A stretch of DNA of 64,000 bases from Malus domestica. Its lineage: Eukaryota > Streptophyta > Magnoliopsida > Rosales > Rosaceae. Position numbers and translations under genes: made by a program. Where the stretch lies: contig NC_091663.1 in NCBI RefSeq assembly GCF_042453785.1, positions 33,840,001-33,904,000 on the forward strand, in the 5' to 3' direction. A model generated the notes under the pieces. The model was not told the DNA's origin. It did no database searches and saw nothing but the letters and a program-made list of their open reading frames with translations. Positions 10,336-64,000 of this stretch are shown here, in pieces. Position 1 is the first letter of the stretch. Every line of letters starts with the position of its first letter.

Positions 10336-10342
10336 TCCCCCC

Positions 10343-11848: not shown

Positions 11849-11854
11849 TGCTTC

Positions 11855-12121
11855 TTAGAAGTCAACTGGTTCACAATCAGCAAAGAGACAGAAAAGTGTA
11901 GGATTATCAAGTCTTTCAGCTACCTCATAAAGATCTCGTAGACTTCTTGTGCGTGGTACTTCTCTTTCATTTAGACTCTCACTTGATGATGCTGATGCTG
12001 ATGTTGGTGAATTACCATGATTGGTTGATGTTGGTGAAGCAGGTGGAGTAGTGGATTCTTGTTGAACCTCTCTTACTTTCCCCATCGTCCCTTGTTCATT
12101 CTCTTCTTCAAATTGAGGAAA
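11855..12121 (-). pseudogene. copia pol, linker between integrase and RT, out of frame
   Basis: The Ser/Pro/Glu-rich linker ('FEEENEQGTMGKVREVQQ' through 'LFCLFADCEPVDF') lies in a different frame from the integrase part. The frames meet at a run of seven A residues (12117-12124 region), a likely slippage indel. The segment ends at the TAA before the RT frame. Confidence 0.8.
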
Positions 12122-14429: not shown

Positions 14430-14430
14430 A

Positions 14431-14442
14431 GCTCTGGTACCA
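14431..14442 (-). other. primer-binding site of the copia element
   Basis: On the minus strand TGGTACCAGAGC lies 3 bp from the 5' LTR end. Copia elements use the 3' end of initiator tRNA-Met, usually TGGTATCAGAGC, so there is one change from the usual motif. Confidence 0.85.
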
Positions 14443-14445
14443 CTT

Positions 14446-14968
14446 TGTTGGGACTTAAAAAGGCTTCACTACTTTGGAGATGTTTATCTCACAAAGAAGA
14501 ATGAAATGCAGCGGAATTGATAGGCAAGAGAAAGAACACTCAAAGTGTTATACAAAAATTTTTATTCTCACACAAACTTAGTACAAGAGGAAACACTCAA
14601 ACATTCTCACACTCTCACACTTCTTGCTCTCTTACTTGCTCTCACTTCTTCTTGCTTCTTACTTCACAACACACACACATACCTATATTTATAGGCATGT
14701 TTGCCGACATTGGACATTGCTAGATCATTCTAGCTACTTATTATGCATGCAACCGACATAGGCTTTGCAATATCCATACACTACCTTCTAGTATATTCTT
14801 TAGCTTAGATATTTAGGTGGATAACTGACTTAGATTGCTGGAATTTTCCAGCTACTTTTGCCGACAAAGAATGCTAGAATTGTCTAGCATATTCAAGCAT
14901 GCACCATCAATTGTGTTGCCTTTTCAGCATGGGCTGGACTTGGCCCAAGACTGGATTAGAATTCAACA
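14446..14968 (-). repeat. 5' LTR of the copia element
   Basis: 523 bp, next to the primer-binding site. It differs from the 3' LTR at two positions. The following CAATC repeat matches the one before 9813. Confidence 0.93.
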
Positions 14969-43919: not shown

Positions 43920-45399
43920 TAATATAAAATAGTGATTTCAAAAATTAAACAAATCGTTCGGGTTTGTAAACCCGTAATATTCGGGGACGGGTCGTTACAT
44001 TAACCCTTTTCCAGGAGCCCCTTTCAAGTAATTGAGAATCCACATTATTGTCGCCATGCGATCCTCACTAGGTGCATGCATGAATTGACTTACCACACTT
44101 ACCGCCTAAACAATATTAGGTCGTGTAAGTGACAAGTAAACAAATCTTCCAACTAACATTTGATATCTTTCTTTATTTGTCAGGACTTGATGCTGATAGA
44201 TCATAAGATGATGATTCTGCATAATCGGGGTATTCGGCGGTTTACATGCCAACTTCTGATAACAAGCCTAACACATACTTACGTTGTGATAATTATATGC
44301 ATCCTCGAGACCTAGCAACTTCAATTCCTAGGAAGTATTTGAGTCCTCCTAGATCTTTCATCTTGAACTCGGAGGGCAAGTACCCCTATAGCCAGTCAAT
44401 CTCCTTTATATCATCCTCTGTGACAATCATATCATCCACATATATAATGAGTAAGGTCACTTTATCATCCTTACGCTTGATGAACAAAGTATGATCTGAG
44501 TTTCCTTAACGGTATTCATACTTCTTCATAGCTTGAGTGAATCGCCCAAACCAAGCTCTCGGTAACTGTTTCAAACTATACAATGCCTTATGAAGTCTAC
44601 ATACTTTTCCACTGGAGTTCTTAATGCCATATCCTAGTGGAAAATCCATATAAACTTCTTCCTCTAATTCCCCGTGCAAAAATGCATTTTTCACATCAAA
44701 CTGTCTTAGAAGCCAATCAAGGTTAGTAGTAAGAGATAACATAACTCTGATAGTATTCATTTTTGCAATGGGAGCAAATTTTTCATGATAGTCAACACCA
44801 AAGGTTTGTGTATAACCTTTGGTTACCAACCTCGATTTGTATCTATCAATCGTGTCATCCGCCTTATGTTTGATAGTTACACCCATTTGCATCCCACCGA
44901 TTTCTTTCCTTAGGGAAGTGTAACCACACTCCACGTTTTGTTCTTCTGTATCGCCCCCATCTCAATTTGCATTGCCTCCATCCACTTTGGATTCCTCAAG
45001 GCTTCCTCCACCTTGGTAGGTATTTTAATCGTTTCCATCTGTTGGAGGACTGCACAGTATTTTGGCGAGAGTCGATGAGTGGAGACATAGTTAGTGATTG
45101 AATACCGCACCTTCCCTTCTGGAGAGTACTTGTCTGGTGGCTTTCCTTGATTTTGTCTAGGAGGTAACTCATAAAGTGGTTTAACAATTTCAGAGTGAGT
45201 ACTTACCTCGGGAATATATGTTGGACCATGAATGAGTATTTGAGGAGTTTAATGGGGGCTGATGTTGTCGAGTTAACTGGAGTTAATACCCTTGGCTTGA
45301 ACAGGGAAATCCCTCTCGGCCTCGGCATGCCCACTCGAGCTCACACATTCATTCTGCTATATGGCAGTCACAGACCCATGTGAACTATTAGCTTCTTTA

Positions 45400-45510
45400 T
45401 ACGCAGCTGGCCCACTCGGGCACTCGGTGGTGCAATGATCATCTGGCCCATTTGGGCATTTGTTGGTGCAATGCTCAGCTGGCCCATTTGGGCAGTCGGT
45501 GCATGTGGAG
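45400..45510. repeat. tandem short repeats in the copia linker
   Basis: The motif 'ctggcccatttgggca' and close forms occur several times with about 45-bp spacing (45408-45505, weaker at 45525). They encode repeated 'AQMGQL' in the integrase-RT linker of the remnant. A separate pair 'cactgaagttg' plus 'tggatcttctagga' lies at 45580-45668. Confidence 0.75.
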
Positions 45511-46086
45511 AAAGCTTGCCCATTTGGGCTTCTTCTTGTTTTCTGGACCTCGGCAGATAACCTAGATTCACCAGGCTACCCACTGAAGTTGTTGGATCTT
45601 CTAGGATAATAGGTATTGGCCTGGATTCGCCCAACCTGCCCACTGAAGTTGCTGGATCTTCTAGGACAGCAGGTATGTCAGCCCAACTATAGTCTTCACT
45701 TACGGTTCTCTCTTCCTAAAGAGTATGGTTGAAAGGAAAAAATAATTCATCTTCAAAGAAGGTAACATCCATGGTGACGTACACATGTCGGGTAGGGGAT
45801 GATAACATATGTACCAATTTTGTTGAGGACTAAATCCAATGAAAACACACCGCATGACACAAAGATCAAGTTTACTCCGTTGGTTGTTAAGGTTAACATA
45901 AGCAACGCACCCAAAGACTCGCGGTTCTAGATGAAGGGTGGAGGAGAGCAAAACATGTTCAGCAAGCACGACCAAATGAGTTCTAAAAGAGAGAACAAGC
46001 GATGGCATCCGGTTCATAAGATAAACAGCATAGGTCACTGCATCAACCCAATATGTCTTAGGTGCACACTCACTGATTAGAAGGGC

Positions 46087-46287
46087 ACAAGTAATCTCAA
46101 GTATAAAGGTCGTACCCAGTGCACAAGGCTCCTGCTTTACGCAGGGTCTGGGAAAGGTGAATGTCGGCTAGCCTTACCCCCATTTATGGAGAGGCTGCTC
46201 CCAAGTCTCGAACCCGAGACCTACCGCTCATGGGCGAAGGCACTTGCCATCGCACCAAGTGCGACCTCTACAAGTAATCTCAAGTAT
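46087..46287 (-). mobile_element. tRNA-derived SINE, second copy, 18-bp target duplication
   Basis: The body (46105-46269) is the reverse complement of the 6079-6237 family, with box B GGTTCGAGA and 'ctccataaatgggggtaagg' on the minus strand. Identical repeats acaagtaatctcaagtat lie at 46087-46104 and 46270-46287. It splits the integrase of the copia remnant, so it is the younger of the two. Confidence 0.92.
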
Positions 46288-46555
46288 GTGTCGATTTTTT
46301 CGTTCGGGTGATCCATTTTGTTGTGGGGTTTGAGGACATGTAGTCTCATGAAGGATACCCTTGACCTTGAAGAACTGGGACATATCTTGGTTAAGATACT
46401 CGCCACAATTGTCAGACCGAAGAACTTTAATGGGAAGTGAATATTGTGTGTAAACCTTGTGATAAAAGATTTTGAAAATTCTACACACATCATTTTTACA
46501 TTTCATACACAACCAAGTCATTCTGGTGCAATCATCAACGAATGCTACAAACCAA

Positions 46556-47195
46556 CAAATCCCATGTTGAGTAGTAACTGAAGGTAAATTTGTGAAAAAC
46601 CAAGTTCATTTGAGCAACATCTATGCATGCAATTAACAATTAAAGATGGAATCATGCTTGTATGCACTCAAAAACAAAATATTACCCATGAAATTCAAAG
46701 CCTAGTAGTTATGGTGAACCAAGACTCAACTCAAGATCTAAGAGAAAGAGTTGAGATTTCTTTATACCTTTGAAGCACCGCTTTGCTTAGCAAAAGTTAA
46801 TCACCCATGTGAGAGCCTTCTTTCTTTTTTCACCTTACTCCTTGGCTCCATGGATGTGGATGGAGGAACTTTGTTTTTTTTTGCTCCATGTCTTCTTGGA
46901 TATGGATAGAATAATTGGTTTCTCTAAAAGTTTCCAAAGTTGGAGACCTTTAAGTTTCGACACCAAGGATGTTTGAGGAAGAAGAGGAATGACCATGGAA
47001 GAATGAGATGCTAGTAAATTCCCCCATGGTGGCTGGCCTCTCTAGAGAGAAAGAGAGAGCCAAAGTTCTCTCATCTTTCCTCAAAGAAAACCCTAATGAA
47101 GAAAAGGTTATAAAGTCACATTTATACCTACCTTCATTGGAGTGGAAAATTTGTAATAAATCCAAAACCCACTCTCTCTCTAAGCATGCCCGACC
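46556..47195. other. unassigned sequence between the copia remnant and the Argonaute copy
   Basis: No gene recognised. The stretch around 46800-47190 reads like an untranslated or LTR-type region rich in gaga and ctct, but no boundary or duplication was found. Confidence 0.4.
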
Positions 47196-48257
47196 TCCCT
47201 ATTGTTAGAGACATCCCCACAATCATCTTTGATGCGGATGTTACCCATCCTCAACCTAGGAAGGATAGCAGTCTGTCAATTGCAGCTGTAAGTTTAGTCG
47301 TCTATTTTGATTTCTTTTTAATTAAAATTCACAACGTGTTAACATGTTAATTTATTCCAACAGGTGGTGGCGTCAATAGATTGGCCACATATAATCCAAG
47401 ATTTTTATAGTGTAAACCAAGACCCTAACAATGGTCTTGTTGGAGGAGGAATGATCAGGTAATTGGGCCAACAATTGTTTCTATTTTTTTTTCCTTCAAG
47501 ATAGTTGTGAGTACAGTTTCTTATCATGATTATGGTAGGGAGCATTTCGACAAGAAACTGGCCGTAAACCAAAGAGAATTATCTTTTACATGTAAGAATT
47601 GTTTTTTCTGTGGTCAAGCAAAATGGACAACACTTTGCCAACATTTGTTTTGATGTTTGCTTGACAGAGACGGAGTTAGTGAAGACCAATTTTGTCAAGT
47701 TCTGCTGTATGAAATGGATGCTATAAGAAATGTACACTAACTATTAGAATGCTAGAATTATTTTTTTAGGATAAGCAAATTTTTTAATACATTCGTTACT
47801 ACTTTACAGGCTTGTCAATCGTTGTAGGAGGGATATCTGCCACCTCTTACTTTTGTTGTGGCATAGACTGGTAAGAGTGACAATTTTCAACCAGTTACAA
47901 ATTTTAGATGCATTGAGATAATAGTAAATTTGATGCTTTTTCATTTTGCGCATTGAGTTATTGTAAATTTGATCTTTAACTATCTTTACCTTGTATAGGC
48001 ACTATTGCTGACACCTAGTTTTGTCATCCGAGTGAGTTCAACTTTTATCTCAACAACCCCTATTATTATTTGTGTTGTTGATTTATACATGCCAATTTCA
48101 TTTTTGCTGTAGTTTGTGTTGATTTAGGGCTTTCAATTCTTTATTTTTTTTTCTCATAAGGGAGGCAAATATATATACTACATACTTGATTTACAAGGTA
48201 AGAATATGCAATAATATTTACCCTATTTCTACAGACTCAAATCCCCCTAATTACATA
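47196..48257 (+). pseudogene. Argonaute PIWI fragment, left arm of the palindrome (outer part)
   Basis: Plus-strand exon-like pieces carry PIWI motifs: '[18 protein letters not shown]' (about 47197-47290), 'VVASIDWPH' (47365), 'REHFDKKL' (47540), 'DGVSEDQFCQVLLYEMDAIR' (47670-47735) and 'GYLPPLTFVV' (about 47835). Two of the catalytic Asp positions can be seen, but frames break and the C-terminal His region is absent. The sequence is the inverse copy of 59095-60156. It is interrupted at 48257 by the large LTR element and resumes at 57027. Confidence 0.88.
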
Positions 48258-48769
48258 TGTTGATGCACAAAATCAGCGAAGACTTTGGTACAACAGAAAG
48301 TGTCAGGTTTTGTGACCTTCGCTTGGTTGCTTCGGTCACTAGTGAGGATAAGTACGTAAATGAATAGAGACAGAGAAGCAAACACAGGATGTACGTGGTT
48401 CACCCAGATTGGCTACGTCCACGGAGTAGAGGAGTTCTTATTAGTAGTGAAGGGCTTACACAAGTACAAAGGATCAAGCTCTCAATTTAGTGAGTTCTTG
48501 TGAATGATTTAACACAAATGGCATTAGGCAATATTGTGGGGGAATGACCCCTATTTATAGAAAAACTTGTAGCTTTGTCACATTGACATGTGTCATGTTA
48601 TGATTGGTTCTTGATGTCGACACGTGCTGCGCTCTGATTGGCTTCTAATCTTGACACGTGTCGAGTAGTGATTGGCGTCCTGGTCGGAGGGGAACTCTTC
48701 TGGGTCCTTGACAGTATAGCGTTGGCCGGTGCTCGGTAGTTTCGGGATTGGTCAAGTATGGTACAAACA
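48258..48769 (-). repeat. 3' LTR of the large element
   Basis: Starts TGTTGATGCACAAAATCAGC, ends GGTACAAACA, 512 bp. 'cctatttatagaa' is a TATA-like motif near 48550. It carries 8 bp (in 'cacattgacatgtgtc') that the other LTR lacks. Confidence 0.93.
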
Positions 48770-51004
48770 GTGCTCCCCTAAGTTCCCGAGTGAGGGAAAC
48801 TCCTCGATTGGGGACTTGCAAGATCCAATCCCTTGAGTAATCACGAAACTTCTAAGTACCGAAGTGTGGTCTGATCTTCATCTGCCCTTTTCTGGAAGTA
48901 CCTTTCCTCCATCCGGGAATGGTGTACTTAGCTGATGTTGACGCACAAGGTAATGTATCAATTTCACTTAAAGCTTAGTTGTAGTTTCGGGCTTAGTCAA
49001 GTGTGATACAAACCCTATAGTAGGAGTCCCCCAAGTCGCCGAGCTAGGAGATCTGCCGAAAGAGGTGACAGACAAGGTAAGCAGTCAAACTTCCAAGTAA
49101 GCAACCCAGGATCAGAGGTTTGACTTCGGCTTCCGGTTGATTGTTCTCCTTCTCCTTGTCTCTCATTCAACTGCCAGGATAAGGAGAAGCAAATGGATAA
49201 GAGATGATATGAGATACTTTTGCTTTTGAAGAAGTAACTTTCCACAAGCTTATTCTTGAACTGTGCTGGAGGGTTTTCTGGTGCCCTTCAGAGTATAAGG
49301 CCGACTCAAAAATTTGAGGGTCAAAACAAGTCCATCAAATCTAGAGTACGTTCGACCTTGATGATATGAGATACTTTTGCTATTGACGGAATAATGAATG
49401 TGGTATGGAAAGGTGTCGTGCTGTAGTGATCTGTTTCAGCTCACCGTTGAACCTTCTGCTTCAATCTTTTGCATGGCAGAAGTGGTGTGCAACCTTTGCA
49501 TTTTAATGGTCCTTCAGAACATTCCTTCATAGTGACTCATCCACGCTTGGCAGCTTCAGTGTAAAGAGCCAATATCTGATCAACTGTCATGAGGTATTTG
49601 CCGGTGGAATTCGTGACCTTGACAGCAGTTGAGGATGAGTACTCGAGAGCAATGCTAAGTAAGCAACCAGGCAAAGGCTCCAGGCGGTCAGTTCCAAATT
49701 GGAGGTTTGATTTCAGGTTCCGACTGACTGCTCTCTTTCTCCTTGTCCTGCAGGTGTGGACAAGGACAAAGACAAAGATAGGGAGAAAGCATGATATGGG
49801 ATACTCTTGCTTTCGACCCTGATGATATGAGATACTCTTGTTCTTGGTGTGGCTTATTTGGTGAGGTATTATCGGGGGGAAATAAAGCTGAGTATTTCGA
49901 GAGGTTATGTTGAGGGTGCCTTTTCGAATGCGAGAAAGGGTTGAGCATTTTTGCAGGTTTGCCTGTCCATTGAGGAGGGAGGTCAATGTATATAGGGATT
50001 TCCCAATAACAAGTAGTAATGCTATTCCTTTACCCTTCTTGGTCACAGCAATGTAGTGGGAGCTGCCAGCTTCACGTGTTTTAATTTTGTCAGAGCACTT
50101 TGAAAAAGTGGTATGTGGTATCTGGAAAGCTGATGTTACGTGTGAAGATTACAGACAAGCTTTATCTAAGGAAATCTGGCTCTCGAAGTTCTGAGAGTTG
50201 TGCCTCTTCAGTTTTCGAACAAGCAATCCCGTCGAGGATCTGACTCTCGAGATTCGGAAAGCAGTGCTACTCCGGTTTTTGAGAAAGTAATTATGTTAGG
50301 AGTCTTTTCTCGAATGTGAGTAAAGGTTGGACGTTCTTGCCAACCTGTCTTGCCGCAAAACACGGAGGTCGACACACATAGGGACTTTCCAGTTGTCAAG
50401 CAGTGGTGCTGTTCCTTTACCCTTATGGGTAATAGTAGGGTAGCTGGAACTTCGAAATTCTCGTGCCTAAACTTTGTCAGAGATCTTTGACAAAGTTATA
50501 TGTGGTACCCGAGGAGTTGATGGTGCATATGAAGAGCGGTGATTGAACAGTAAGATTCACGTGCTTTCTACTTCACCAGAAATCTTCGACAGAGTGCCCG
50601 TAATTTCCGCAAAGCTGATTGCGCATGTGACAGGTGCTGACGAGGCTGAAAAAGCAGGTGCTTCTTTGATTTCTGAGATCGGCCCTCGTGGTCTCTGAGC
50701 AGCCCAGCTTTTGAGAAAGCAAACGCCTCTTCGATTTCTGAGATCGGCCCTCGTGGTCTCTGAGCAGCCCATCTTTTGAGAAAGCAAACGCCTCTTCGAT
50801 TTCTGAGATCGGCCCTCGTGGTCTCTGAGCAGCCCAGCTTTTGAGAAAGCAAACGCCTCTTCGATTTCTGAAGCTCCGTCGAGTGCATATTTTTATAGAG
50901 GCTGGCATTAAGTTCCACAGCACACTTGAATCTCTACCAGTAGAAGCTCATTTCTTGCACTTCTAAGATCTTGATTTGTCTGACCTCTTCCCTCTTCAAC
51001 ACAT
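48770..51004. other. non-coding internal region of the large element
   Basis: Purine tract at 48770-48782, then long non-coding sequence with scattered repeats such as 'atatgagatacttttgct' (49208-49225, again near 49365 and similar at 49800-49845) and 'tgcagg' motifs. No retroviral-type domain is seen. It includes the 65-bp tandem array at 50668-50872. Confidence 0.6.
50668..50872. repeat. 65-bp tandem repeat, about three units
   Basis: The start 'gatttctgagatcggccc' recurs at 50668, 50733 and 50798 and begins again at 50863, an exact 65-bp period. The units are nearly identical, so the array expanded recently. Overlapping ORFs here are products of the repeat. Confidence 0.92.
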
Positions 51005-51010
51005 TTGAAA

Positions 51011-51687
51011 ATGTCTGGACCCTCCGACCGTCGTTTTGACTTGAACCTTGGAGAAGAGACAGCCACGCCTTCTCCAGACAACATATGGCGCCCATCCTTC
51101 ATATCCCCTACTGGTCCTCTTACCGTTGGGGATTCTGTGATGAAGAATGATATGACCGCTGCAGTGGTGGCCAGGAACCTTCTCACTCCCAAAGATAACA
51201 GACTACTTTCCAAACGGTCTGATGAGTTGGCTGTTAAGGACTCTCTGGCTCTTAGTGTTCAGTGTGCAGGTTCTGTGTCTAATATGGCCCAACGCCTATT
51301 TGCTAGAACCCGCCAAGTTGAATCATTGGCTGCTGAAGTGATGAGTCTCAAACAGGAGATTAGAGGGCTCAAGCATGAGAATAAGCAGTTGCACCGGCTC
51401 GCCCATGACTATGCTACAAACATGAAGAGGAAGCTTGACCAGATGAAGGAATCTGATGGTAAGGTTTTACTTGATCATTAGCGGTTTGTGGGTTTGTTCC
51501 AAAGGCATTTATTGCCTTCGTCCTCTGGGGCTGTACCTGGTAATGAAGCTTCAAATGATGAACCTCCAATGCCTCCTCCTTCTGGGGTTTTGTCAAGTAC
51601 TGAGGCTCCGGATAACCACCCTCCGGTGCTTTCTCTTTCTGGGGCTCTATCGACTGCTGAGACTTCCCCTAAGCAACCTTTGTGAAG
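51011..51687 (+). pseudogene. accessory ORF of the large element, coiled-coil protein, antisense to gag
   Basis: The reading frame opens 'MSGPSDRRFDLNLGEE' at 51011 and runs to a TAG at 51479-51481. The same frame continues after it to TGA at 51685-51687, about 225 codons in all. The central part has a leucine/lysine heptad pattern ('VESLAAEVMSLKQEIRGLKH'), a likely coiled coil; the tail is Ser/Pro-rich. The direction is opposite to that of the element's own gag. Similar ORFs are, by memory, frequent in apple-family repeats and often annotated as uncharacterised proteins. Function unknown. In this copy the TAG, where a single base change would give CAG, makes it a truncated form of 156 residues. 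Confidence 0.75.
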
Positions 51688-52129
51688 GCTCCCTTTTGTT
51701 TGTTTATTTTGACTCATGTATATGTACATATTTGTGGCTTATCGAAAATATTAATAAATAAGCTTTGCTTCATTTCAATATATTGTGTTAAATACACCAA
51801 AGCCTTCTTCATAAAGTTCTTTGAATTTTTGCTTTTGTTGAAACCTGTATTGTTGAAGCTTTGTGAGTGAAGCATGTAGTTTGAGGTAGTGTTCCCTTAA
51901 TTTCCCGAGTGAGGAAAACTTCTCGGTTGGAGACTTGAAAAATCCAAGTCACTGAGTGGTTGTGAGACTGCCGAGTATTAAGGTGCAGTAGCATATGGTG
52001 GGAGTCCCCCAAGTCTTCAGGCGAAGAGAGTTGCCGAATGAGGTGTCTCGCTTGTTACTAATTTGTCAAAGTAACGAATCCTTGTTTTGATGTCACACAT
52101 TCGCATATGCCTTATCTAAAAATATTTCC

Positions 52130-53220
52130 AACTTTTGTGTGTTTGATGCTGCATGCTTTTGACTAGACAAGATTAAGTGCAATTAGTAGCTTTTCTCTCT
52201 TTTTCATCTTTTCTTTGGTGGAATTGCTTTTCGTTTCCACTAATCAGCCTGAGTGGATGCAAGATAACACCATTCTCTATAGCTCAGATCGCAAAGTCGT
52301 CTTCATGAAAGTTGTTCCTTATCTTGTGAACTACAACATCTCCAAATTTGAGATCCATCGGAGTAGTACAACTCCAGAAATTCAGGTATGATGAGTAACT
52401 GTTCATCAATTTTCTGTTAACCCGTCAGACTTGTTGTGAGCTTCTAAACTCCATTTTTTCTTGTTCATCTCAACATACTTTCTTCATCGAAGTTGTTCCT
52501 CACCTTGTCAGCTACAACATATCCAAATTTGAGATCCATCGGAGCAGTACAAATCCAGAAATTCAGGTATGATGAGTGACTGTTCATCATTTTTCTGTCA
52601 ACCTGTCAGACTTGTTGTGAGCTTCGAAACTCCATTTTCTCTTGCTCAGATCAACATACTTTCTTCATCGAAGTTGTTCCTTAACTTGTGAACTACAACA
52701 TATCCAAAATTGAGATCCCTCGGAGCTGTATAACTCAAGAAATGCAGGTATGATGAATGACTGGTTATTATTTTTCTGTCAACCCGTCAGATTTGTTGTG
52801 AGCTTTGAAACTCTATTTTCTCTTGCTCAGATCAGCATGCTTTCTTCATTGAAGTTGTTCCTCAGCTTGTGAACTACAACATATCCAAATTTGAGATCCC
52901 TCGGAGCTGTATAACTCAAGAAATTCAGGTATGATGAATGACTGGTTATTATTTTTCTGTCAACCCGTCAGATTTGTTGTGAGCTTCGAAACTCCATTTT
53001 CTATTGTTCAGATCAGCATGCTTTCTTCATTGAAGTTGTGCCTCATCGTCTCTTTCATAACATATCAAAAATTCAGAATGAACTAATGGTTAAATATTTC
53101 CAGATCTTCGAAACATCATAGCAGCTTCGAAATCTGCAAGAATCCGACTGTCATGTTTGGAGCTTCAACACTTTAATTTCTGTCGCTCAAACAGAAATGG
53201 TTCCTTCTTGAAAGTTGTTC
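52130..53220. repeat. 181-bp tandem array, about 4.5 to 5 units
   Basis: The landmark 'gttgttcct' (last copy 'gttgtgcct') occurs at 52311, 52492, 52673, 52854 and 53035, exactly 181 bp apart. Each unit holds 'ctacaacatatccaaa', 'attcaggtatgatga' and 'ttgttgtgagctt'. Units differ by scattered substitutions; the edges fade by about 52240 and 53210. The period is in the size range of plant centromeric satellites, but here the array sits inside an LTR element. Confidence 0.9.
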
Positions 53221-53609
53221 ATATGCTCAAAAACTATAGGGTGTCCAAAATTCAGCTCCATTGGAGAAGAGCAGAGGTTGCAGAAATTTGATAGATGAAA
53301 GGAGGCGGAAGAGGGAGAGAGAGAAAAAGTCTTTTGGGTTGGATTTCTATTTTGGGGCAGATTCCAAGTTTTGTAGCACCTTCATTATTGATGAATTGCT
53401 TGTACTTTTGTCCATTATGAAACTTGGAACTTTGGCTTGTTGTTGGATCTATTATAATATGTTTGGAAACATATACATAATTGCTTGTTTGGTTATGACA
53501 GGGATGTTGTGGGTGTAGAACAAAACAAATGTTTGTGTTGACCTGTGTTTTTGTACAAGTTCAAGGGCATCTTGGGTTTTGTGAACAAAATTTGTTTATT
53601 TGGAGCAAG

Positions 53610-54520
53610 GTTTTGTGTTGAAGCTTTGTAGGTGAAGCTTTGGTGTTGAAGCTTTCTAGGTGAAGCTTTCTGGGTGAAGCTATGTAGGTGAAGCTTTCTA
53701 GGTGAAGCTTTTTTAGGTGAAGCTTTGTAGGTGAAGCTTTTTTAAGTGAAGCTTTTCGGGTGAAGTTTTTTGGGTGAAGCTTTGTGGGTGAAGCTTTTTA
53801 GGTGAAGCTTTGTGGGTGAAGCTTTTTTAGGTGAAGCTGTTTGGGTGAAGCTTTTTGGAGGTGAAGTTTTTTTTGGGTGAAGCTTTTTTAGGTGAAGCTT
53901 TTTGGGTGAAGCTTTGATGGTGAAGCTTTGTAGATGAAGCTTTGTAGATGAAGCTTTCGAGGTGAAGCTTTGATGGTGAAGCTTTGTAGGTGAAAGTATG
54001 TAGAGGGAGCTTTCTAGGTGAAGCTTTTTTAGGTGAAGCTGTGTAGGTGAAGCTTTTTTAAGTGAAGCTTTTCGGGTGAAGTTTTTTGGGTGAAGCTTTG
54101 TGGGTGAAGCTTTTTAGGTGAAGCTTTGTGGGTGAAGCTTTTTTAGGTGAAGCTGTTTGGGTGAAGCTTTTTGGAGGTGAAGTTTTTTTTTTTTTTTTTT
54201 CTTTTTTTTTTTTGGGTGAAGCTTTTTTAGGTGAAGTTTTTTGGGTGAAACTTTTTGGATGAAGCTTTTTGGGTGAAGTTTTGGAGGTGAAGCTTTTTGG
54301 GTGAAGCTTTGTGGGTGAAGCTTTTTAGGTGAAGCTTTGTGGGTGAAGCTTTTTTAGGTGAAGCTGTTTGGGTGAAGCTTTTTGGAGGTGAAGTTTTTTT
54401 TTGGGTGAAGCTTTTTTAGGTGAAGCTTTTTGGGTGAAACTTTTTGGATGAAGCTTTTTGGGTGAAGTTTTGGAGGTGAAGCTTTTCGGGTGAAGCTTTT
54501 TGGATGAAGCTGTTTTTTTT
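53610..54520. repeat. minisatellite of 15-bp type gtgaagctttttngg units
   Basis: About 900 bp of units close to 'ggtgaagctttttag' or 'gggtgaagctttgtg', with variable T runs. Higher-order copies exist: the order of variants at about 53735-53880 recurs at 54060-54200 and 54290-54420. Poly(T) tracts near 54190 and 54510 interrupt it. The Lys/Ser/Pro-rich ORFs on the minus strand are repeat products. Confidence 0.93.
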
Positions 54521-54708
54521 TTTTTTTTTTTTTTGGCGCTTGACACGGTCTTCATTTGCTTGTTTTGTAGTGACTGTGGAAGACGGATTGCTTTCTGATT
54601 GAGAAGGGTTCCGGCATCGCTTTGCACCATCTTCATGTGGGTAATATAGGAACTTCCTTATGTTTTGATCATGCATGTAGTGATAGAATTTGTTTCTTCT
54701 TATTGTAG

Positions 54709-54981
54709 ATGTCAGAGCCTGGAAGTTCTAGTGATGAGGGCTCTTCTAGCTTTAGCTCTAAGTCTGAGTCTGCAATGTCGGAGTCTTCAGGGTCTTTGTT
54801 AGAGTCCTGTACTAGAGAAACATTGGATGATCTTCCCAACCGTCAAACTTTAGCTATTGCTAGTTCTTCCTCCATGGCGTTGGGTGAGGGGGTTTCTCCT
54901 GATATGTCTTTGCCTCGGCGGAGGCATGGTTATAAGCCTGCGCCATCACCTCAGAGCAAGTCTTCCAAGTATTGGCATTGA
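54709..54981 (+). CDS. second accessory ORF of the large element, Ser-rich
   Basis: 90 codons, 'MSEPGSSSDEGSSSFSSKSE' onward, starting just after 'ttattgtag', which looks like a splice acceptor. It is Ser-rich then basic ('MSLPRRRHGYKPAPSP'). Its last 122 bp lie antisense to the gag 3' end, so only the first part is likely to be genuine. It may be a downstream exon of the same plus-strand unit as 51011-51687. No known domain. Confidence 0.4.
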   Translation: MSEPGSSSDEGSSSFSSKSESAMSESSGSLLESCTRETLDDLPNRQTLAIASSSSMALGEGVSPDMSLPRRRHGYKPAPSPQSKSSKYWH

Positions 54982-56410
54982 TCATGTATTTAAAGAAACA
55001 ATCACGTAGGCCTGCCGTGAAGGCTTTGAGGGCAGTCTTGTCGTCTGCCTCGGCACACCGGGAGTATTCATGGCTGAAGCGGCCAGCATACATACGTAAT
55101 GACTCGTCTGGCCTCTGGCGGATAGTGCGGTCATCTGCAGAGTGCAAGCAATCGGTTTGGAAAATGTGTTGGGAAACAAATAGTTTCCTCAATTCCTCAA
55201 ATGAGTCTACCGTCTCAGGTGTAAGACGACAATACCAATTTAGAGCTCCGCCAGAGAGGGTGGAGGGGAAGAGAAGACATCGCTCTTCGTCGGTGTGCAT
55301 CCGGTATGCCATGGTGGACTCAAAGAGGTTAAGGTGCTCAATCGGGTCCTCTTTTCCAGTATAAAGTTGCAAGCCAAGCTTCTGCTTTGTCTTTGCTTGA
55401 AGGGGGTGTTGAGGATCCTCCTTGTAAGAGGGCCAGGCCTGGGTTGGTTCCAGTCAGGTATTTCAGCATGACGTTCAGCCTTCAACTTGTTTACTTCCTC
55501 AAGAAGTTGTAGGACAAGGGGGTCCTGAGCGGAGTTATGTGCCACTGGAGCTTTCTTTCGTAAATCTTCATCTCCTCTTGGAATTAGGAAGGTTTGATCA
55601 AGGGCATGTGATTTTTCCCTGGACTCGCTGTACTGGCTTCCAGGGTATGTCTGTCGGAACACCTCTGAGTCCCCTGTACCCTCATGTCTCTCTAGGACTT
55701 GTTGCACCTTCTCCAAGTTGGCGGCCGGCTCGGGCCGTGGCAGGGGACCGAGTCTCTCAGAAATCCTTGGGTCATTGATCTTTAAGCTTATATGGATGGA
55801 ATTCTCTCAACGTTGCTTCAGGAAATCCCGACAATCGCGAAAGACGGCTTTCGATCCTTCTGCCCCTTCAGCAAAGAGGTGTCTCCCTCCGCTTCTCATG
55901 GTTCGGGTCGAAGCAACTGGGTTAAGAGAAGCCTCATGTTGATTATCAAATCGAGGGGTAATTTGTTCCCTATCAGGGATATCTATGTCGAATGCTCTGC
56001 CCCTTCAGCAAAGAGGTGTCTCCCTCCGCTTCTCATGGTTCGGGTCGAAGCAACTGGGTTAAGAGAAGCCTCATGTTGATTATCAAATCGAGGGGTAATT
56101 TGTTCCCTATCAGGGATATCTATGTCGAATGCATGTGACCTTCCATGTTGGAGGGCACCCAGTTGATGGTTGACTTCCACGGGGGCAACAAGCTCGCGTG
56201 TCTGAGCTTGCCTAGCTTCGTGAAGTGTCTCGAAGAGCTTCTCATATTGCTCCTGGAGGACCTCATTCCTCATTGCTATCTTGTTGTTCTGAGCTTCCAA
56301 CTCATCGACTTTAGCTTGAAGAAGAACTCGTTTTCCTTCCTTCTTTCGTTGTTTCGCACTATGTGCAAGGGGGTGTCATTCTGTGTGCTGTGGCTTCCTT
56401 CGCTTCCCAT
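54860..56410 (-). pseudogene. gag of the large LTR element, broken
   Basis: Begins 'MGSEGSHSTQNDTPLHIVRN' at 56410, then a coiled-coil stretch ('IAMRNEVLQEQYEKLFETLH'). A linker follows, interrupted by a 137-bp tandem duplication (55861-56134). The retrotransposon gag domain comes last (54860-55372, 'LYTGKEDPIEHLNLFESTMA', 'LSGGALNWYCRL'). Frames shift at about 56330, at the duplication and near 55385. The frame ends soon after 'AQAYNHASAEAKTY', with no zinc knuckle or protease, so it is truncated as well as frameshifted. Confidence 0.85.
55861..56134. repeat. 137-bp tandem duplication in gag
   Basis: 'tgccccttcagcaaagagg' occurs at 55861 and 55998, and the two 137-bp units are virtually identical. 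137 is not a multiple of three, so the duplication itself breaks the gag frame. Confidence 0.93.
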
Positions 56411-56497
56411 GCTGGAGATGGATGCCTGATCAAAAGAAAGTGTACGAATGATAGAAACCAGCTTGACACAGCTGAAGAGAGTAGGAATAAGTGTCGT

Positions 56498-56517
56498 TTC
56501 CCACAGACGGCGCCAAA
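56498..56517 (-). other. primer-binding site of the large LTR element
   Basis: On the minus strand TGGCGCCGTCTGTGGGAA directly follows the 5' LTR. This type is common in plant gypsy and LARD elements. It fixes the element's orientation. Confidence 0.85.
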
Positions 56518-57021
56518 TGTTGATGCACAAAATCAGCGAAGACTTTGGTACAACAGAAAGTGTCAGGTTTTGTGACCTTCGCTTGGTTGCTTCGGTCACT
56601 AGTGAGGATAAGTACGTAAATGAATAGAGACAGAGAAGCAAACACAGGATGTACGTGGTTCACCCAGATTGGCTACGTCCACGGAGTAGAGGAGTTCTTA
56701 TTAGTAGTGAAGGGCTTACACAAGTACAAAGGATCAAGCTCTCAATTTAGTGAGTTCTTGTGAATGATTTAACACAAATGGCATTAGGCAATATTGTGGG
56801 GGAATGACCCCTATTTATAGAAAAACTTGTAGCTTTGTCACGTGTCATGTTATGATTGGTTCTTGATGTCGACACGTGCTGCGCTCTGATTGGCTTCTAA
56901 TCTTGACACGTGTCGAGTAGTGATTGGCGTCCTGGTCGAAGGGGAACTCTTCTGGGTCCTTGACAGTATAGCGTTGGCCGGTGCTCGGTAGTTTCGGGAT
57001 TGGTCAAGTATGGTACAAACA
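56518..57021 (-). repeat. 5' LTR of the large element
   Basis: 504 bp, nearly identical to 48258-48769; ACATA follows at 57022-57026. Confidence 0.93.
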
Positions 57022-57026
57022 ACATA

Positions 57027-58007
57027 CAAAAGTCAACTCACTCCAATAGTTTGCCCTCTTCTAAGCATGTATTCGTGCTCTCTTCACTGCTAAATATGAA
57101 ATCTAAGTTGTGCTATAGTTTGAATTGCTATCCTTTGTTCGTGTAGGAAACTAACATGCCTATGCACTACAATGTCATGTATGATGAAAACAAATTCACC
57201 CTTAATTGCTTGCCGACTTTCTAATCGTATGTCATATAATTTTTTAGTTATAAGGGAACCACCCTTATTCTTATCATAAGGCCTTATATCATGATGGGGT
57301 CGGATTCTCGATTCAGCACTAACAGTGGGACCCTCTTAATATCTTCAAAGATGTGTATTTTAAGCGAACAGAGCTTCTATATGTGGAAACAAAGTTAAAG
57401 CTAGAAGGTTAGTTGATCATGTGGGCCCGAATGCATGCATAGGTAGGAAAACAACCCATAAAGGTATAATTAAAGCATGCAATCGATTCAACAAGGAGAA
57501 AATATGTATGGAAGGGTTATCCATGATTGCTTGCATAGGCACAAATGCATCTATGATCAACTATAGGGTGGAGGCAAATCATGTAGACAAGTGTCCGAAA
57601 ACATATGGATGTTGAGAACGAATTGTCAGTCATCGTGGTGTTGCACACTTGGATTTAGCCATAGGAACTGGACAACGCTTTGCAATTCATCAGTTGGCTC
57701 GTAGCTTATCGCATGACAAAGATAATATCTATTATCATAATTATCTTAGTATGTCATAGATAGTAGGGTTGTACAATAAACCAGTTGAAGAAAAGAAAGC
57801 CGAAGAAAGTGTACTCAAGGTGCTGTTCATGGCGGCTTTAAGAGATCCGAGTACAGGTCCCCTTTTAAGGCCCATATGATTACTAAGGAAGGGCTAGTAA
57901 GAAGAGTCATATGCACCTTTACTGAAGCTTGCATCAGAATTGAGCACATTGCTACACAGATGCTTTATGACAAGATCCGTGTGTTCTTTTTCTATCCACG
58001 GATATTC
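57027..58007 (+). pseudogene. left palindrome arm, inner part: Argonaute tail and degenerate copy of the 239-aa ORF
   Basis: Resumes the arm cut at 48257. 'NMPMHYNVMYDENKFTLNC' (57150-57215) matches the Argonaute PIWI stretch around H-Y-x-V-x-x-D-E-N. From about 57340 on, the sequence is the inverse copy of 58066-58740. 'GPNACIGRKTTHKGIIKACN' is readable at 57424-57483, but stops occur at 57613-57615 and later. By eye about 12 differences separate the arms over 200 bp (57430-57630). Confidence 0.85.
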
Positions 58008-58065
58008 ATCAAATTACTAAGTAGAAGATGATGTATTTCCAATGCTGCTCAAATAAAAGACTCTG
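58008..58065. other. spacer at the centre of the large palindrome
   Basis: About 58 bp separate 'ttctatccacgga' of the left arm from 'tctgtggatagaaaaag' of the right arm. It would be the loop of a hairpin. Confidence 0.75.
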
Positions 58066-58728
58066 TGGATAGAAAAAGAACACACGATTCTTGTTATAAA
58101 GCATCTGTGTAGCAATGTGCTCAAATCTGATGCAAGCTTCAATAAAGGTGCATATGACTCTTCTTACTAGCCCTTCCTTAGTAATCATATGGGCCTCAAA
58201 AGGGGGACCTGTACTTAGATCTCTTAAAGCCACCATGAAAAGCGCCTCGAGTACACTTTCTTTGACTGTCTTTTCTTCAATTGGTTTCTTGTACGACCCC
58301 TCTGACATACTGAGATAATTATGATAATAGATATTATCTTTGTCATGCGATAAGCTATGAACCAACTGATGAATTGCAAAGCATTGTCCAATTCCTATGG
58401 CATATATGCCTAAATCCAAGTGTGCAACACCACGATTACTGACAATTCGTTCACAACATCCATATGTTTTTGGACACTTGTCTACATGATTTGACTGCAC
58501 CCTATAGTTGATCATAGATGCGTTTGTGCATGTGCAAGCAATCATGGAGAAGCCTTCCATACATATTTTCTCCTTTTTGAATCGATTGCACGCTTTAATT
58601 ATACCCTTATGGGTTGTTTTCCTACCTATGCATGCATTCGGGCCCGCATGATCAACTAACCTTCTAGCTTCAACTTTGTTCCCACATATAGAAGCTCTGT
58701 CGCCCAAATGTTCGCTCAAAATACACAT
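58009..58728 (-). CDS. unrecognised 239-aa protein in the right palindrome arm
   Basis: An uninterrupted frame, 'MCILSEHLGDRASICGNKVE' to '...FYLVI'. It contains 'ACIGRKTTHKGIIKACNRFK', 'GVAHLDLGIYAIGIGQCFAI' and 'TVKESVLEALFMVALRDLS'. The other arm has the same ORF with several stops, so this copy has stayed open. The spacing of 'IGIGQCFAI' and 'TVKESVLEAL' vaguely recalls proteasome-type Ntn hydrolases, but I cannot support that without a profile search. The last 19 residues or so come from the palindrome spacer. It lies just downstream of the Argonaute PIWI remnant in the same orientation. It may be part of a captured gene, or a chance frame in a decayed one. Confidence 0.5.
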   Translation of the reverse strand: MCILSEHLGDRASICGNKVEARRLVDHAGPNACIGRKTTHKGIIKACNRFKKEKICMEGFSMIACTCTNASMINYRVQSNHVDKCPKTYGCCERIVSNRGVAHLDLGIYAIGIGQCFAIHQLVHSLSHDKDNIYYHNYLSMSEGSYKKPIEEKTVKESVLEALFMVALRDLSTGPPFEAHMITKEGLVRRVICTFIEACIRFEHIATQMLYNKNRVFFFYPQSLLFEQHWKYIIFYLVI

Positions 58729-60156
58729 CTTTGAAGATATTAAGAGGTCCCACTATTAGTGCTGAATTGAGAATCCACCCCCATCATGATATAATTAGGC
58801 ATTATGATAAGAATAAGGGTAGTTCCCTTATAACTGAAAAATTATATGACATACAATTAGAAAGTCGGCAAGCAATCAGGGTAGAATTTGTTTTCATCAT
58901 ACATGACATTGTAGTGCGCAGGCATGTTAGTTTCGTACACGAACAAAGGATAGCAATTCAAACTATAGCACAACTTAGATTTCATATTTAGCAGTGAAGA
59001 AAGCACAAATACATGCTTAGAAGATGGCAAACTATTGAAGTGAGTTGACTTTTGTGTGTAATTAGGGGGGTTTGTTACCCGTTTGAGTCCGTAGAATTAT
59101 GGTAAATATTATTGCATATTCGTACCTTGTAAATCAAGTATATAGTATATATTTGCCTTCCTTATGAGAAAAATAATATCAAGAATTGAAAGCCCTAAAT
59201 CAGCACAAACTACCGCAAAAATGAAATTGGCATGTATAAATGAACAACACAAATAATACCTGAATGCTAGCATGGTTGTTGAGATAAAAGTTGAACTCCC
59301 TCGGATGACAAAACTGGGTGTCAGCAATAGTGCCTATACAAGGTAAACATAGTTAAAGAGCAAAATGGAAAAAGATCAAATTTACAATAACTCGATGCGC
59401 AAAATGGAAAAACATCAAATTTACTATTATCTCAATGCATCTAAAATTTGTAACTGGTTGAAAATTGCCACTCTTACCAGTCTGTGCCACAAAAAAAGTA
59501 AGAGGTGGCAGATATCCCTCCTACAACGATTGACAAGCCTGTAAAGTAGTAACGAATGTATTAAAAAATTTGCTTCTCCTAAAAAAATAATTCTAGCATT
59601 CTAACAGTTAGCGTACCTTTCTTATATCATCCATTTCATACAGCAGAACTTGACAAAATTGGTCTTCACTAACTCCGTCTCTGTCAAGCAAACATCAAAA
59701 CAAATGTTAGCAGAGTGCTGTGTCATTTTGCTTGACCACAGAAAAAACAATTCTTACATGTAGAAGATAATTCTCTCTGGTTTACAGCCAGTTTCTTGTC
59801 GAAATGCTCCCTACCATAATCAAAATAATCATGATAAGAAAATGAACTCACAACTATCTTGAAGGAAAAAAAAATAGAAACAATTGTTGGCCCAATTACC
59901 TGATCATTCATCCTCCAACAAGACCATTGTTAGGGTACTGGCTTACACTATAAAGATCTATGATTATCTGTGACCAATCTATTGATGCCACCAGCTGTTG
60001 GAATAAATTAACATGTTAACACGTTGTGAATTTTAATTAAAAACAATTTAAAATAGACGACTGAACTTACAGCTGCAATTGACAGACTGCTGTCCTTCCC
60101 AGGTTGAGGATGGGTAACATCTGCAGCAAAGATGATTGTGGAGATGTCACTAACTA
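58066..60156. repeat. right arm of the large palindrome (inverse of 47196-48257 plus 57027-58007)
   Basis: Every landmark of the left arm recurs inverted: the 239-aa ORF (58066-58740), 'YDENKFT'-type Argonaute tail (about 58880), 'DGVSEDQF' (59650-59690), 'REHFDKKLAVNQRELS' (59760-59815) and '[20 protein letters not shown]' (60060-60140). The right arm lacks the LTR element: 'cccccctaattacacac' near 59065 (inverse strand) is the empty site. The outer end is near 60156, where the Argonaute gene continues but the left arm stops. Confidence 0.9.
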
Positions 60157-62694
60157 GAGGAATCCTTCTTCGAATGGCAACAGTGTTCCTTCCACCAAAC
60201 TACAACAGTTTCAAATGTTGTGTCAACATTTCAATGCTCATGGAAGATAATAAGTAATGTGAAGGACAAATGGACAATACATAAAAAACGAACCTTCACA
60301 TTTATCTCGAGCGACAAATTTTCTAAATATTGTTTGCTGAGCCTCGATGCTGCTATAGGCTGACAGCACTGAGATACGACTCCTAACTCACCTTCCCGGA
60401 ATCGTTTTATCATCTTTTCTGCAAGGAATCAATATGACAGATTTTAAGCTTGAATATCTTGAAAATTTGCAATACAAGACACTTTTTGTTCATAGATTTA
60501 CTGCTCACCATATGATCCAGTGACATCAGGCAAAATGATAATTAACAACTGAAGATGCCTTCCCTTCTGTCCAACTTCTTCAAGTTGCTTGCTAGACATC
60601 TTATGGATATCTCCGAGCACCCTCTCTATTTTCCCAGGATGAGCTGATTGATGCGGAAGTAAAGGTTGCGGATGGAAATGCTAGGAAGAAAACAATTTGG
60701 TTATGAAATTAACAAAAAACAATTCAAGGCAGAAAGAGGAGGAAGTTTAGGATTACATTCATACCACTCCCTTGCTGTTGCACGGACTGACCAAATCCTC
60801 ACAGAATCGGAAGTTAAAACTTTGGTCCAATAGGGAAAAATCAACATATGCCCAGAAATCCACTCAAACACCGTTAAACGTTTTCTACAGAACCGGCATA
60901 TATTAAAACTAATCAGAAATCAAAGTTCCAATATGAAAAAAATTTCAATTTTCATGCTGCACCACATATCACAAAAGCAGCAAAAGACAGTATCTTATAA
61001 TGTTTACAAATCCATTATTCATATGTACAAGTGAAGGTGCTGTCTGCAAAGCCACTTAAATTGCAAAAACTTTGTTAAACTACCCTCAAACCCCTTCAGT
61101 TGCATAAATCATGGGTAACTGCCCTCAAAACGCATTAAAGATTCCACACGTATGAACTGGAGTTCAACATACACACAGATCCGTCAAAACACATTAAAAA
61201 CCAATACCACACTTTGTTGATCATGTTCCATTGCCCCATTCGTGGTTTTTCAGAGTTCTCACAACCAGCGTGGTATTTCAGCCGTTGTCATCAATTCAAA
61301 CACCAGCAAAGGAAAAAAGATGAGTAAAAAAACACTTGCACTATTCAAACAAAATTGGAAACAAATAATTACCAAAGGCGGCCACAGAACACGAGCATTG
61401 TCATATCTTCTCTTATAGTCATTCCAAATTCCCGTTGGATAAGCTCATCTTTATTGTGACCATTGTGTTTAACCATCTGTACAGGTACCTCCATTGGCAA
61501 ATAAGCAGGTTTTGAATCCCTCCCAGATAGAAGCGCAGGCATTGCCACATCCCTTAGCCCAATATTGTACCTCTCATGAGTGAACCTAAAATGCAGAGAT
61601 GGATAATAAGTTATGAATCAACAAGGGAGAGAATTTTCCATGTTCTGTTACCATGGAATACAATCATAACTCAATTTGATTTTTTTTTCTTTTCCAGCAA
61701 ATCAAGTACCACAACAATCCATATACATACAAACAATACATTAGCATAAACGTAAAGATTACAAGACTCACTTCAACTTGCTCTGTGGTTCAACTGACAC
61801 CCCAGTGATTTCATAACCGGTATGCTCTTCATAAGAAAGTGGTACCTCGACCCCCTTTAAGGGCTTTTTCTCCTGTAAGTAACAGAATTTTAATCAGCTT
61901 TGCTTAAATAAAATATTTTTAAGTAACTATTTGTGGACAAACATAAGTAAATACACAGAACTCTGAATATATTAGTCAATTAAAAAAAAAAGCAAATGAT
62001 TACATGCTAAAACTAAATGCATCTTCAAAACCCAGTGAACATAAATACTAGCAAGCAAATCTGCATAAACATAACCTATAACTTGTATAAATAGCTTGAA
62101 CTTTGTTGTTGAGACAAGTAGAAATTAAGTACAAACTATCAACTCAACAGAATCACATTGTATTTTGATTATATAGCTTTACTTTTAGATAAGTTAACTA
62201 TCAAAACTGCATTCCACAAATTGAAAAGAAAATGGCGAATACCTTCAAACGATCACGATCAGGCAAAAGGCCTTGACAATTGTCTGTCGCTCAAAAGTTT
62301 TTTGACAAACTCAGTTACCATAATAGGCTCATAAATTGCTCTGGCCGATACATCTGCAAATATACGAATAGAAAGAGTTAGGTCACAACACTTTTGTTAC
62401 TTAACTTTGTATGGTTACTAAAACAGGGAAAATTATACTTATATTGAGCGAAAGCCCAAACTGACTCTGGGAAAACCCTCTCCAGTATTCCTGACCTTCA
62501 CCAAGATCACCACCTTTCTGCCCAAGCTCAGTGGCGAAGGACGAGTACCTGTGATAGAAATGACAACGCTCAAACTGTCACTATTAAGGAAACCACACGT
62601 AAAAGGCCAAAGTAAAACCTATGTTTTTCTAACAAACGAAGACTTTACTTTTCTGGAGGTGCGGCCTTCAGAGCAACATCCAGCACTTGAGTTT

Positions 62695-63022
62695 CCTCCC
62701 TTTTGTTCTTTCTGCAGTGTTCATTTCGTTCTTATTTTTCTGTGTTTATATGTTCATCTGCATTCCCTTTCCAAATTTAAATTAAAATTTTGTATTTTAT
62801 TGTCTGAATTTTGCTTTTGCCTTTTCTTTTTAGTTTTTATTCTTCGGTTTTTGGAAACTGTAGTCGCTAATGGCGTTTTGGGACCCAAAAATCATTTGAG
62901 GTTCTCAAAACCCCTTTCTGATTCCCAAAACCCATTTCTCTACCGTTTTTGTAAATCTGAACCAGGAATATGTTCATCTAAAAGGTGTTGAGGTTGGGAA
63001 AAAACTTTTGATGTTTCTCAGA
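62695..63022. repeat. inverted repeat 2, left arm (intron after Argonaute exon 2)
   Basis: 328 bp from 'cctcccttttgttctttctg' to 'ttgatgtttctcagaa'. It is the inverse of 63405-63791, with high identity apart from two insertions in the other arm. Confidence 0.9.
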
Positions 63023-63029
63023 AGCTGGG

Positions 63030-63158
63030 ATTCTTAGAAATAATTTTCATGCCATCATAAGCTGGGATTCTGTTGCCTAGGCGAGACTCCTGGTAAAGTT
63101 TTGGGAGCTGATTAATGACATCCCTGTGCATCTTTTCCGATGCAACTTCAGGGGTAAT
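63030..63158 (-). other. Argonaute exon 2, located between the arms of inverted repeat 2
   Basis: The exon opens after an AG with 'ITPEVASEKMHRDVINQLPK' and continues 'LYQESRLGNRIPAYDG', which is standard Argonaute N-domain sequence. It then runs into 'aagaatcccagctt', a repeat of 'cagaatcccagctt' 30 bp earlier, and a stop. No clear donor is seen. The adjoining arm starts 8 bp further on. Confidence 0.7.
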
Positions 63159-63404
63159 CTACAGCCACCAAGTGAAATTGTAAAACACCACACAACAGAT
63201 AACGAAAAAAACAAGAACAATACCAACGGTTTACCAAGAAAACAGAGATTCAGAAAATGCCGAAAGAAAGACGTTCTTCCCAGGAAACATTTCTGTGTCA
63301 AAAGTACTGAATATATATATGTAGCAAAAGAAAACCAAGACCTATTTCACCGAAACTTTCATCAATAGGTTTCTGCTTGGTACTCAGAAACGTGTTTTAA
63401 CGTG

Positions 63405-63791
63405 TTCTGAGAAACATCAAAAGTTTTTTCCCAACCCCAACACCTTTTAGATGAACATATTCCTGGTTCAGATTTACAAAAACGGTAAAGAAATGGGTTT
63501 TGGGAAACATCAATTAATAGTTGATTGCTCTTCATCATCGTTTGGAATCAGAAAGGGGTTTTGAGAACCTTAAATGATTTTTGGGTCCCAAAACGCCATC
63601 AGCGACTACAGTTTCCAAAAACCGAAGAATAAAAACTAAAAAGAAAAGGCAAAAGCAAAATTCAGAAAATAAAATACAAATTTTTAATTTAAATTTGGAA
63701 ATGGAAACCTGAAGAGTACGAATGCAGATGAACATATAAACACAGAAAAATAACAACGAAAGGGAACACTACAGAAAGAACGAAAGGGAGG
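63405..63791. repeat. inverted repeat 2, right arm (start of Argonaute intron 1)
   Basis: 387 bp, inverse of 62695-63022. It carries about 15 bp extra near 63705 and about 40 bp extra near 63505-63545. It begins within a few bases of the intron 1 donor (GAT|GTAAGC, 63797/63796). Confidence 0.9.
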
Positions 63792-64000
63792 CTTACATCG
63801 TACTGGTAACGGAGACCTCTCGCCGCAACCCCCATCCGGATCCTCGTATCAGGCCGTTCCGAAACCAGCCCTCAGAGCATACCGAATGACCTCCGACGAT
63901 GACGGTGGCGGAGCTGTCCACGTCAGTTTCTGCTCCATCCCAGTGGAGACTCAGCAGGCGGAGGCGCCGAGCTGGAGGCCGCCTGAGCTAGCGCTGGTCC

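Follow-up and report, generated by a model that had tools for sequence, protein, structure and literature searches.

A palindrome of Argonaute sequence in the apple genome, probably an inverted duplication of a dead AGO5-like gene

Does a palindrome built of Argonaute sequence turn the silencing machinery of a plant against itself, or is it merely what became of a gene that had already died? The question is raised by a locus in a 64,000-nucleotide stretch of the apple (Malus domestica) genome, hereafter the window (C3:33,840,001-33,904,000, on contig NC_091663.1; coordinates given without a prefix are window positions), in which the last third of an AGO5-like gene and an adjoining orphan open reading frame (ORF) are present as two inverted arms, A and B. 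The original prediction saw in them a hairpin whose small interfering RNAs (siRNAs) could act on AGO5 or related AGO genes. Our analysis instead favours, with a probability of roughly 75%, a plainer reading, in which a dead gene underwent an ordinary inverted duplication that has no selected function.

Anatomy of the palindrome and the insertion in arm A

The palindrome is a real inverted duplication. Comparison of the window with itself returned an inverted pair (47,198-48,241 and 59,082-60,160) and a self-palindrome (57,022-59,059), and alignment resolved these matches into two arms around a short centre. The outer half of arm A (47,204-48,257, AGO sense on the plus strand) consists of PIWI pseudo-exons and introns, recognized by tblastn and by their inverted match to 59,082-60,154, while its inner half (57,027-58,002, plus strand) holds the 3' end of the AGO pseudogene and a damaged copy of the orphan ORF, as seen by self-comparison, alignment and tblastn. 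Arm B (58,062-60,154, AGO sense on the minus strand) is the inverted match of arm A, and self-comparison leaves a centre of 59 bp between them (58,003-58,061); homology of the B-side ORF to the protein P0001 reaches 58,027, which assigns about 35 bp of this centre to the B copy and leaves about 24 bp unassigned. With the insertion in arm A excluded, the arms are identical in 1,903 of 2,020 alignment columns (94.2%; Kimura two-parameter distance, K2P, 0.0605) and differ by 71 transitions, 46 transversions and 17 gaps, base counts that stay the same with or without one base of the insertion in the alignment. The inverted arrangement, the arm length of about 2 kb and the difference of about 6% had all been predicted, the last by eye from a 200-bp sample, and are borne out, as is a spacer close to the anticipated 58 bp; the picture of two continuous arms does not hold, given that arm A is split by a retrotransposon of 8,764 bp.

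This insertion (48,258-57,021, minus strand) was delimited by its junction letters and shows the hallmarks of a long terminal repeat (LTR) retrotransposon: paired TG...CA LTRs (48,258-48,769 and 56,518-57,021), a target-site duplication ACATA (48,253-48,257 and 57,022-57,026) and a gag-like ORF (54,860-55,453, minus strand; Pfam Retrotrans_gag, 9.2e-14), with no pol domain in the five ORFs scanned among the ten listed inside it. Its LTRs are identical at 502 of 503 aligned bases (99.8%) apart from one 8-bp gap, and their K2P of 0.002, set against the arms' divergence of 0.060, would make the insertion about thirty times younger than the divergence of the arms, a ratio based on a single LTR substitution. 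The element also holds tandem repeats of 181, 65 and about 14 bp as well as a perfect 137-bp tandem duplication at 55,859-56,132.

Could the palindrome have been made by the assembly, through a fold-back or misjoined haplotypes, rather than by the plant? Such an origin is barely credible and a fold-back very unlikely, because the arms have diverged by 6%, with 17 gaps, and only one of them carries the insertion with its target-site duplication; the window moreover contains no runs of N, and the outer flanks of the arms are unlike each other. A foldback or terminal-inverted-repeat transposon was considered and rejected: neither element ends nor a target-site duplication were found at the outer ends of the arms, and the outer end of arm B lies within a continuing gene, since past 60,160 the same AGO exon and gene go on while arm A ends inside that very exon.

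Death, duplication and decay of the AGO5-like gene

The gene into which arm B continues spans 58,857-63,950 on the minus strand and was traced as 18 reading-frame pieces, running from 63,938 to 58,860, that all belong to one AGO gene. Its nearest named relatives among the best 120 of 745 matches come from pear and apple and are argonaute 5 proteins, and the predicted AGO5 affiliation thus stands; the sequence is nevertheless a pseudogene, in both arms as well as upstream of arm B. Instead of an open frame through PAZ, MID and PIWI we found stops, frame changes and missing regions, and for residues 198-263 and 905-982 of the apple AGO5 protein P0006 the window copy offers no matching sequence. 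The place of the missing region of residues 198-263 is occupied by an inverted copy of intron sequence, part of a second, smaller inverted repeat that self-comparison and alignment located at 62,695-63,023 and 63,405-63,791 with a loop of 381 bp (318 of 329 aligned bases identical, 3 gaps, K2P 0.034). Because this second inverted copy is present, such rearrangement must have happened more than once in the pseudogene. A genome search returned no near-identical copy of the part upstream of arm B (60,161-62,690), with relatives matching at 68-95% over parts of it.

Two features of the arms bear on when and how they were duplicated. Both retain introns, and the duplicated stretch breaks off at its outer end within a PIWI exon, from which it follows that copying did not pass through an mRNA. 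Furthermore, the alignment shows a TAG stop common to both arms (47,825-47,827 in A; 59,521-59,523, minus strand, in B) where three of four relatives in the genome (C3:13.73 and the AGO5 genes at C3:12.54 and C11:14.17) read CAG and the fourth has no sequence. Unless gene conversion spread this stop from one arm to the other, the gene was thus dead before it was duplicated. The protein models P0002 and P0003 (apple) and P0004 (pear) have a sense codon at this site. As a side observation, P0002 and P0003 are among public apple and pear models of the pseudogene lineage and join AGO to the orphan ORF by splicing, while P0004 and P0009, likewise models of this lineage, end in stretches that match the opposite strand of the arms; by sequence, all four look like annotated pseudogenes.

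Relatives elsewhere in the genome place the duplication in time. The 94% identity between arms A and B falls to about 80% when either is compared with three of the relatives, and to about 70% with the fourth; the AGO5 genes at C3:12.54 and C11:14.17 are 87.6% identical over 1,183 aligned bases. The difference between 94% and 87.6% suggests that the A-B pair is probably younger than the split between these two genes, a rough comparison in that the AGO5 pair is partly constrained. We take C3 and C11 to be homeologous. Both AGO5 genes are presumably intact, as judged from full-length public models and the 3.7-4.0 kb of each that was read: stop-free exon matches tie P0008 (978 aa) to C3:12.54 Mb at 85-100% identity and P0006 (982 aa) to C11:14.17 Mb at 95.8-100%. 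They lie in clusters of AGO5-type copies (C3:12.48-12.54 Mb and C11:14.17-14.20 Mb) in each of which one copy matches a full-length public apple model and the others are uncertain.

After the duplication, both arms drifted without visible constraint. With C3:13.73 as outgroup, 29 changes are private to A and 20 to B. The K2P between the arms is 0.063 in the AGO exons, 0.051 in the introns and 0.069 in the ORF part, and over 220 codons of the ORF the arms differ by 31 nonsynonymous and 11 synonymous changes (ratio of nonsynonymous to synonymous rates, dN/dS, 0.72). These exon and intron rates and the dN/dS fit neutral decay, with which they are compatible without proving it. The history that we favour would then begin with an AGO5 copy that lost its function, after which its last third and the orphan ORF would have been duplicated tail-to-tail, in inverted orientation and at the DNA level, around a short centre, probably through a snap-back or template-switching route of repair; the arms would have drifted apart to a difference of 6%, and the LTR retrotransposon would have entered arm A recently. 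The locus would serve no selected function today, and any double-stranded RNA (dsRNA) made by read-through transcription would act mainly on the locus itself.

Several observations weigh against this account. A dN/dS of 0.72 leaves room for mild constraint on one arm, and arm B keeps its ORF open for 247 codons. A sequence that decays neutrally could also still form a hairpin that works through the structure of its stem alone. Transitions in CG context affect 25 of 88 sites compared with 46 of 694 other C/G sites, an approximately fourfold enrichment in a comparison made within the arms only, as would be expected if the arms were methylated, and siRNAs could be the cause of such methylation. 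If the arms exchanged sequence by gene conversion, the duplication could look younger than it is and the shared stop could have been spread. Finally, inverted copies at four of the five places that hold the ORF family (see below) are not what a one-off accident predicts.

Silencing potential of the stem

A transcript read through the centre could fold, and the capacity for long dsRNA that had been predicted for it is supported: for a 347-nt centre transcript, the predicted fold of -255.8 kcal/mol is far more stable than chance (shuffle mean -77.2, n=100; z -32.8). The inner stem of about 1 kb sits directly at the 59-bp centre, with pieces that are 87-95% complementary, and the outer stem of about 1 kb pairs across the insertion. 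Of the 2,011 21-mers of arm A, 498 are found exactly in arm B.

Whether siRNAs from such a stem could find targets was gauged by counting shared 21-mers, with exon masks taken from tblastn identity runs. In the exons of the AGO5 gene at C11, exact matches number 10 of 2,011 for arm A, at two places, and 4 of 2,073 for arm B, at one of those places; up to three mismatches, the masked exons match 167 (A) and 178 (B) 21-mers. The exons of the AGO5 gene at C3:12.54 have no exact match to either arm, 40 (A) and 14 (B) matches with at most one mismatch, and 158 and 159 with at most three. Exact matches are lacking at three AGO1/AGO10-type loci (at most 5 21-mers within one mismatch and 28-36 within three), at six further AGO-like loci (at most 8 within three mismatches) and at five AGO loci in which the PIWI frame is uninterrupted (at most 4 within three mismatches). 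Other AGO5-type copies (C3:12.48, C3:12.51, C11:14.20 and C3:13.73) share 1-20 exact 21-mers with the arms, introns included. From these counts, AGO5 could be affected in trans at two places, but in general such an effect is unlikely. The three AGO1/AGO10-type loci (L006-L008) had been candidates for AGO5 and were dropped from that group, as the closest plant structures to one exon of L008 are AGO10 and AGO1; L006 and L007 would be of the same type by inference from exon matches similar to those of L008.

Plant genomes offer precedents for hairpin loci of this general kind. In rice, small RNAs have been mapped to the stems of inverted pseudogene pairs (PMC2708354). Like these pairs, the apple arms are neighbouring paralogous pseudogenes on opposite strands and no more than 2 kb apart, with a 59-bp centre, the shared TAG and further lesions, and they likewise combine a stem far above 100 bp with a loop below 2 kb (PMC2708354); unlike them, the apple locus is known from its sequence alone, and its stem of about 2 kb is split by the LTR element. 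The maize Tpd1 hairpin is also a large non-coding hairpin locus of which a transposon-interrupted form exists, yet it gives rise to 22-nt siRNAs whose target has been described, and its interrupted W22 locus made no small RNA (PMC11390486). The Arabidopsis long inverted repeat IR71 shares with the apple locus its endogenous nature and kilobase size, while transcription and dicing are described for IR71 (PMC12825306). Adjacent inverted pseudogenes are furthermore one route in the inverted-duplication model of MIRNA origin, credited to Allen et al. 2004 (PMC3237417), and the apple locus indeed shows inverted pieces of a protein gene side by side; the apple source gene differs in that it was probably already dead, has little perfect match to living relatives and gives no MIRNA family match at the gathering score (Rfam 15, window 44,000-64,000). 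By its sequence, the apple locus joins the known inverted-pseudogene-pair hairpins in structure only. A search for titles on AGO5, pseudogenes, apple and hairpins found no publication on this palindrome, which is not proof of absence.

Against this background, we consider it improbable that the locus acts in trans, with a transcript that would fold, be cut by DCLs and yield siRNAs that lower the expression of an intact AGO5. The strong predicted fold, the two exact exonic places in the C11 gene together with its 167 and 178 near matches, the 40 and 14 21-mers within one mismatch of the C3:12.54 gene and the rice and maize precedents (PMC2708354, PMC11390486) would all suit such a role. They are outweighed by the observations that some 91-92% of the 21-mers lie more than three mismatches from the masked C11 exons, that the C3:12.54 gene has no exact match and that the AGO exons are not conserved; moreover, the LTR element splits arm A, and the transposon-interrupted Tpd1 locus of maize W22 yields no small RNA (PMC11390486), though about 1 kb of inner stem is left in apple. 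The predicted silencing of AGO5 or related AGO genes is hence not supported in light of exons that decay no slower than introns, few exact 21-mers and a transposon in one arm, and the idea of a self-silencing locus finds little support in the sequence.

An action restricted to the locus itself would be compatible with the inverted duplication of a dead gene and appears considerably more credible, albeit still less likely than not: the locus might give rise to 24-nt siRNAs, or to other dsRNA, that would maintain methylation there without any effect elsewhere. The fourfold enrichment of CG-context transitions and the young LTR element inside would be in line with this, and some plant inverted repeats do make siRNAs, such as IR71 (PMC12825306). 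Methylation without local siRNAs would also give CG decay, however, and the enrichment is measured against other sites of the arms only. Irrespective of such activity, the locus shows a dead gene turning into a potential source of dsRNA with an order of events that can be read from it: death, inverted duplication and transposon insertion. Its importance would rise if siRNAs from the stem were found in apple, or if the inverted copies of the ORF family proved to exceed chance.

The orphan ORF and its recurrent inversion

The orphan ORF (58,009-58,752, minus strand; 247 codons from stop to stop), taken from the ORF list and followed by protein comparison, is open in arm B and broken in arm A, where stops interrupt the frame at 57,613 (TGA) and 57,757 (TAG). 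Its sole near full-length relative is P0001 (374 aa; 61% identity over 242 residues), which is encoded on a contig of 1,539 bp and retrieved nothing except itself in a protein search at E 0.01. No supported relative of the ORF was found in Pfam or PDB, and a six-row profile had no PDB match up to E 10. The idea of a proteasome-type hydrolase failed, with no proteasome match in Pfam up to E 1 and, in a comparison with five proteasome sequences or exons of apple, an hhalign probability of 1.4; the profiles behind these searches are thin and the evidence is weak. A structure prediction from two sequences reached a mean pLDDT of only 28.6 and was not used. At C3:13.73 Mb the order of AGO followed by the ORF recurs, and this order therefore predates the palindrome.

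Members of the ORF family were found at five places in the genome (18 matches from 23 scored candidates), and inverted copies with arms of at least 250 bp occur at four of them, or at three of five with a threshold of 300 bp. Besides the window (arms 94% identical, 59-bp centre), these are C3:13,658,586-13,660,273 (69%, with the centre at the 5' end), C5:43,140,530-43,142,934 (93.5% over a pair reaching to 43.1426 Mb, with a 167-bp spacer and a third partial copy) and C3:13,730,846-13,731,880 (263 bp, 73%, with pieces in the order plus, minus, plus). The fifth place, at C3:13.652 Mb, holds a C-terminal fragment with an inverted match about 8 kb off in the C3:13.66 cluster. By comparison, arms of at least 250 bp were absent from all 39 distinct control stretches (134,251 bases) and from positions 1-47,000 of the window, while 2 of the 39 had inverted arms of at least 200 bp (67% and 72%). 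The controls derive from 51 loci, of which five (L032, L037, L049, L050 and L054) were dropped because their position coincides with, or is close to, a place of the ORF family or the window locus, and the remaining 46 were merged to 39; they are short and non-random, having been picked for AGO, proteasome or arm similarity.

This recurrence could be read as a sign that the ORF is the unit that matters and AGO a passenger, the family persisting in apple mainly in the form of inverted pairs, with hairpins repeatedly selected against an intact, perhaps selfish, member of the family that their siRNAs would silence. A model for such a role is provided by Drosophila simulans, in which hairpin RNA (hpRNA) suppressors silence selfish genes (PMC10317233). 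The different ages of the arms (94%, 93.5%, 73% and 69%) and the different centres at the four places would agree with repeated retention, as would the empty controls at this arm length and the finding that queries with P0001 or the C5 copy returned no intact member in the genome among the matches listed. Nonetheless, we regard both the special part of the ORF and the retention of its hairpins as highly improbable: only three of five places remain at the 300-bp threshold, four of the five lie on C3, two of them separated by about 6 kb, and may be of common descent, and the short control stretches were chosen by similarity. With the inverted duplication of a dead gene as our preferred reading of the window locus, the recurrent inversion of the ORF family is the one loose end.

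Apart from the palindrome, the window contains a separate element at 9,813-14,968 with terminal direct repeats of 523 bp that are 99.6% identical, marking it as a young insertion; it has long minus-strand ORFs at 12,108-14,465 and 10,343-11,854 and looks copia-like, a likeness judged by eye only.

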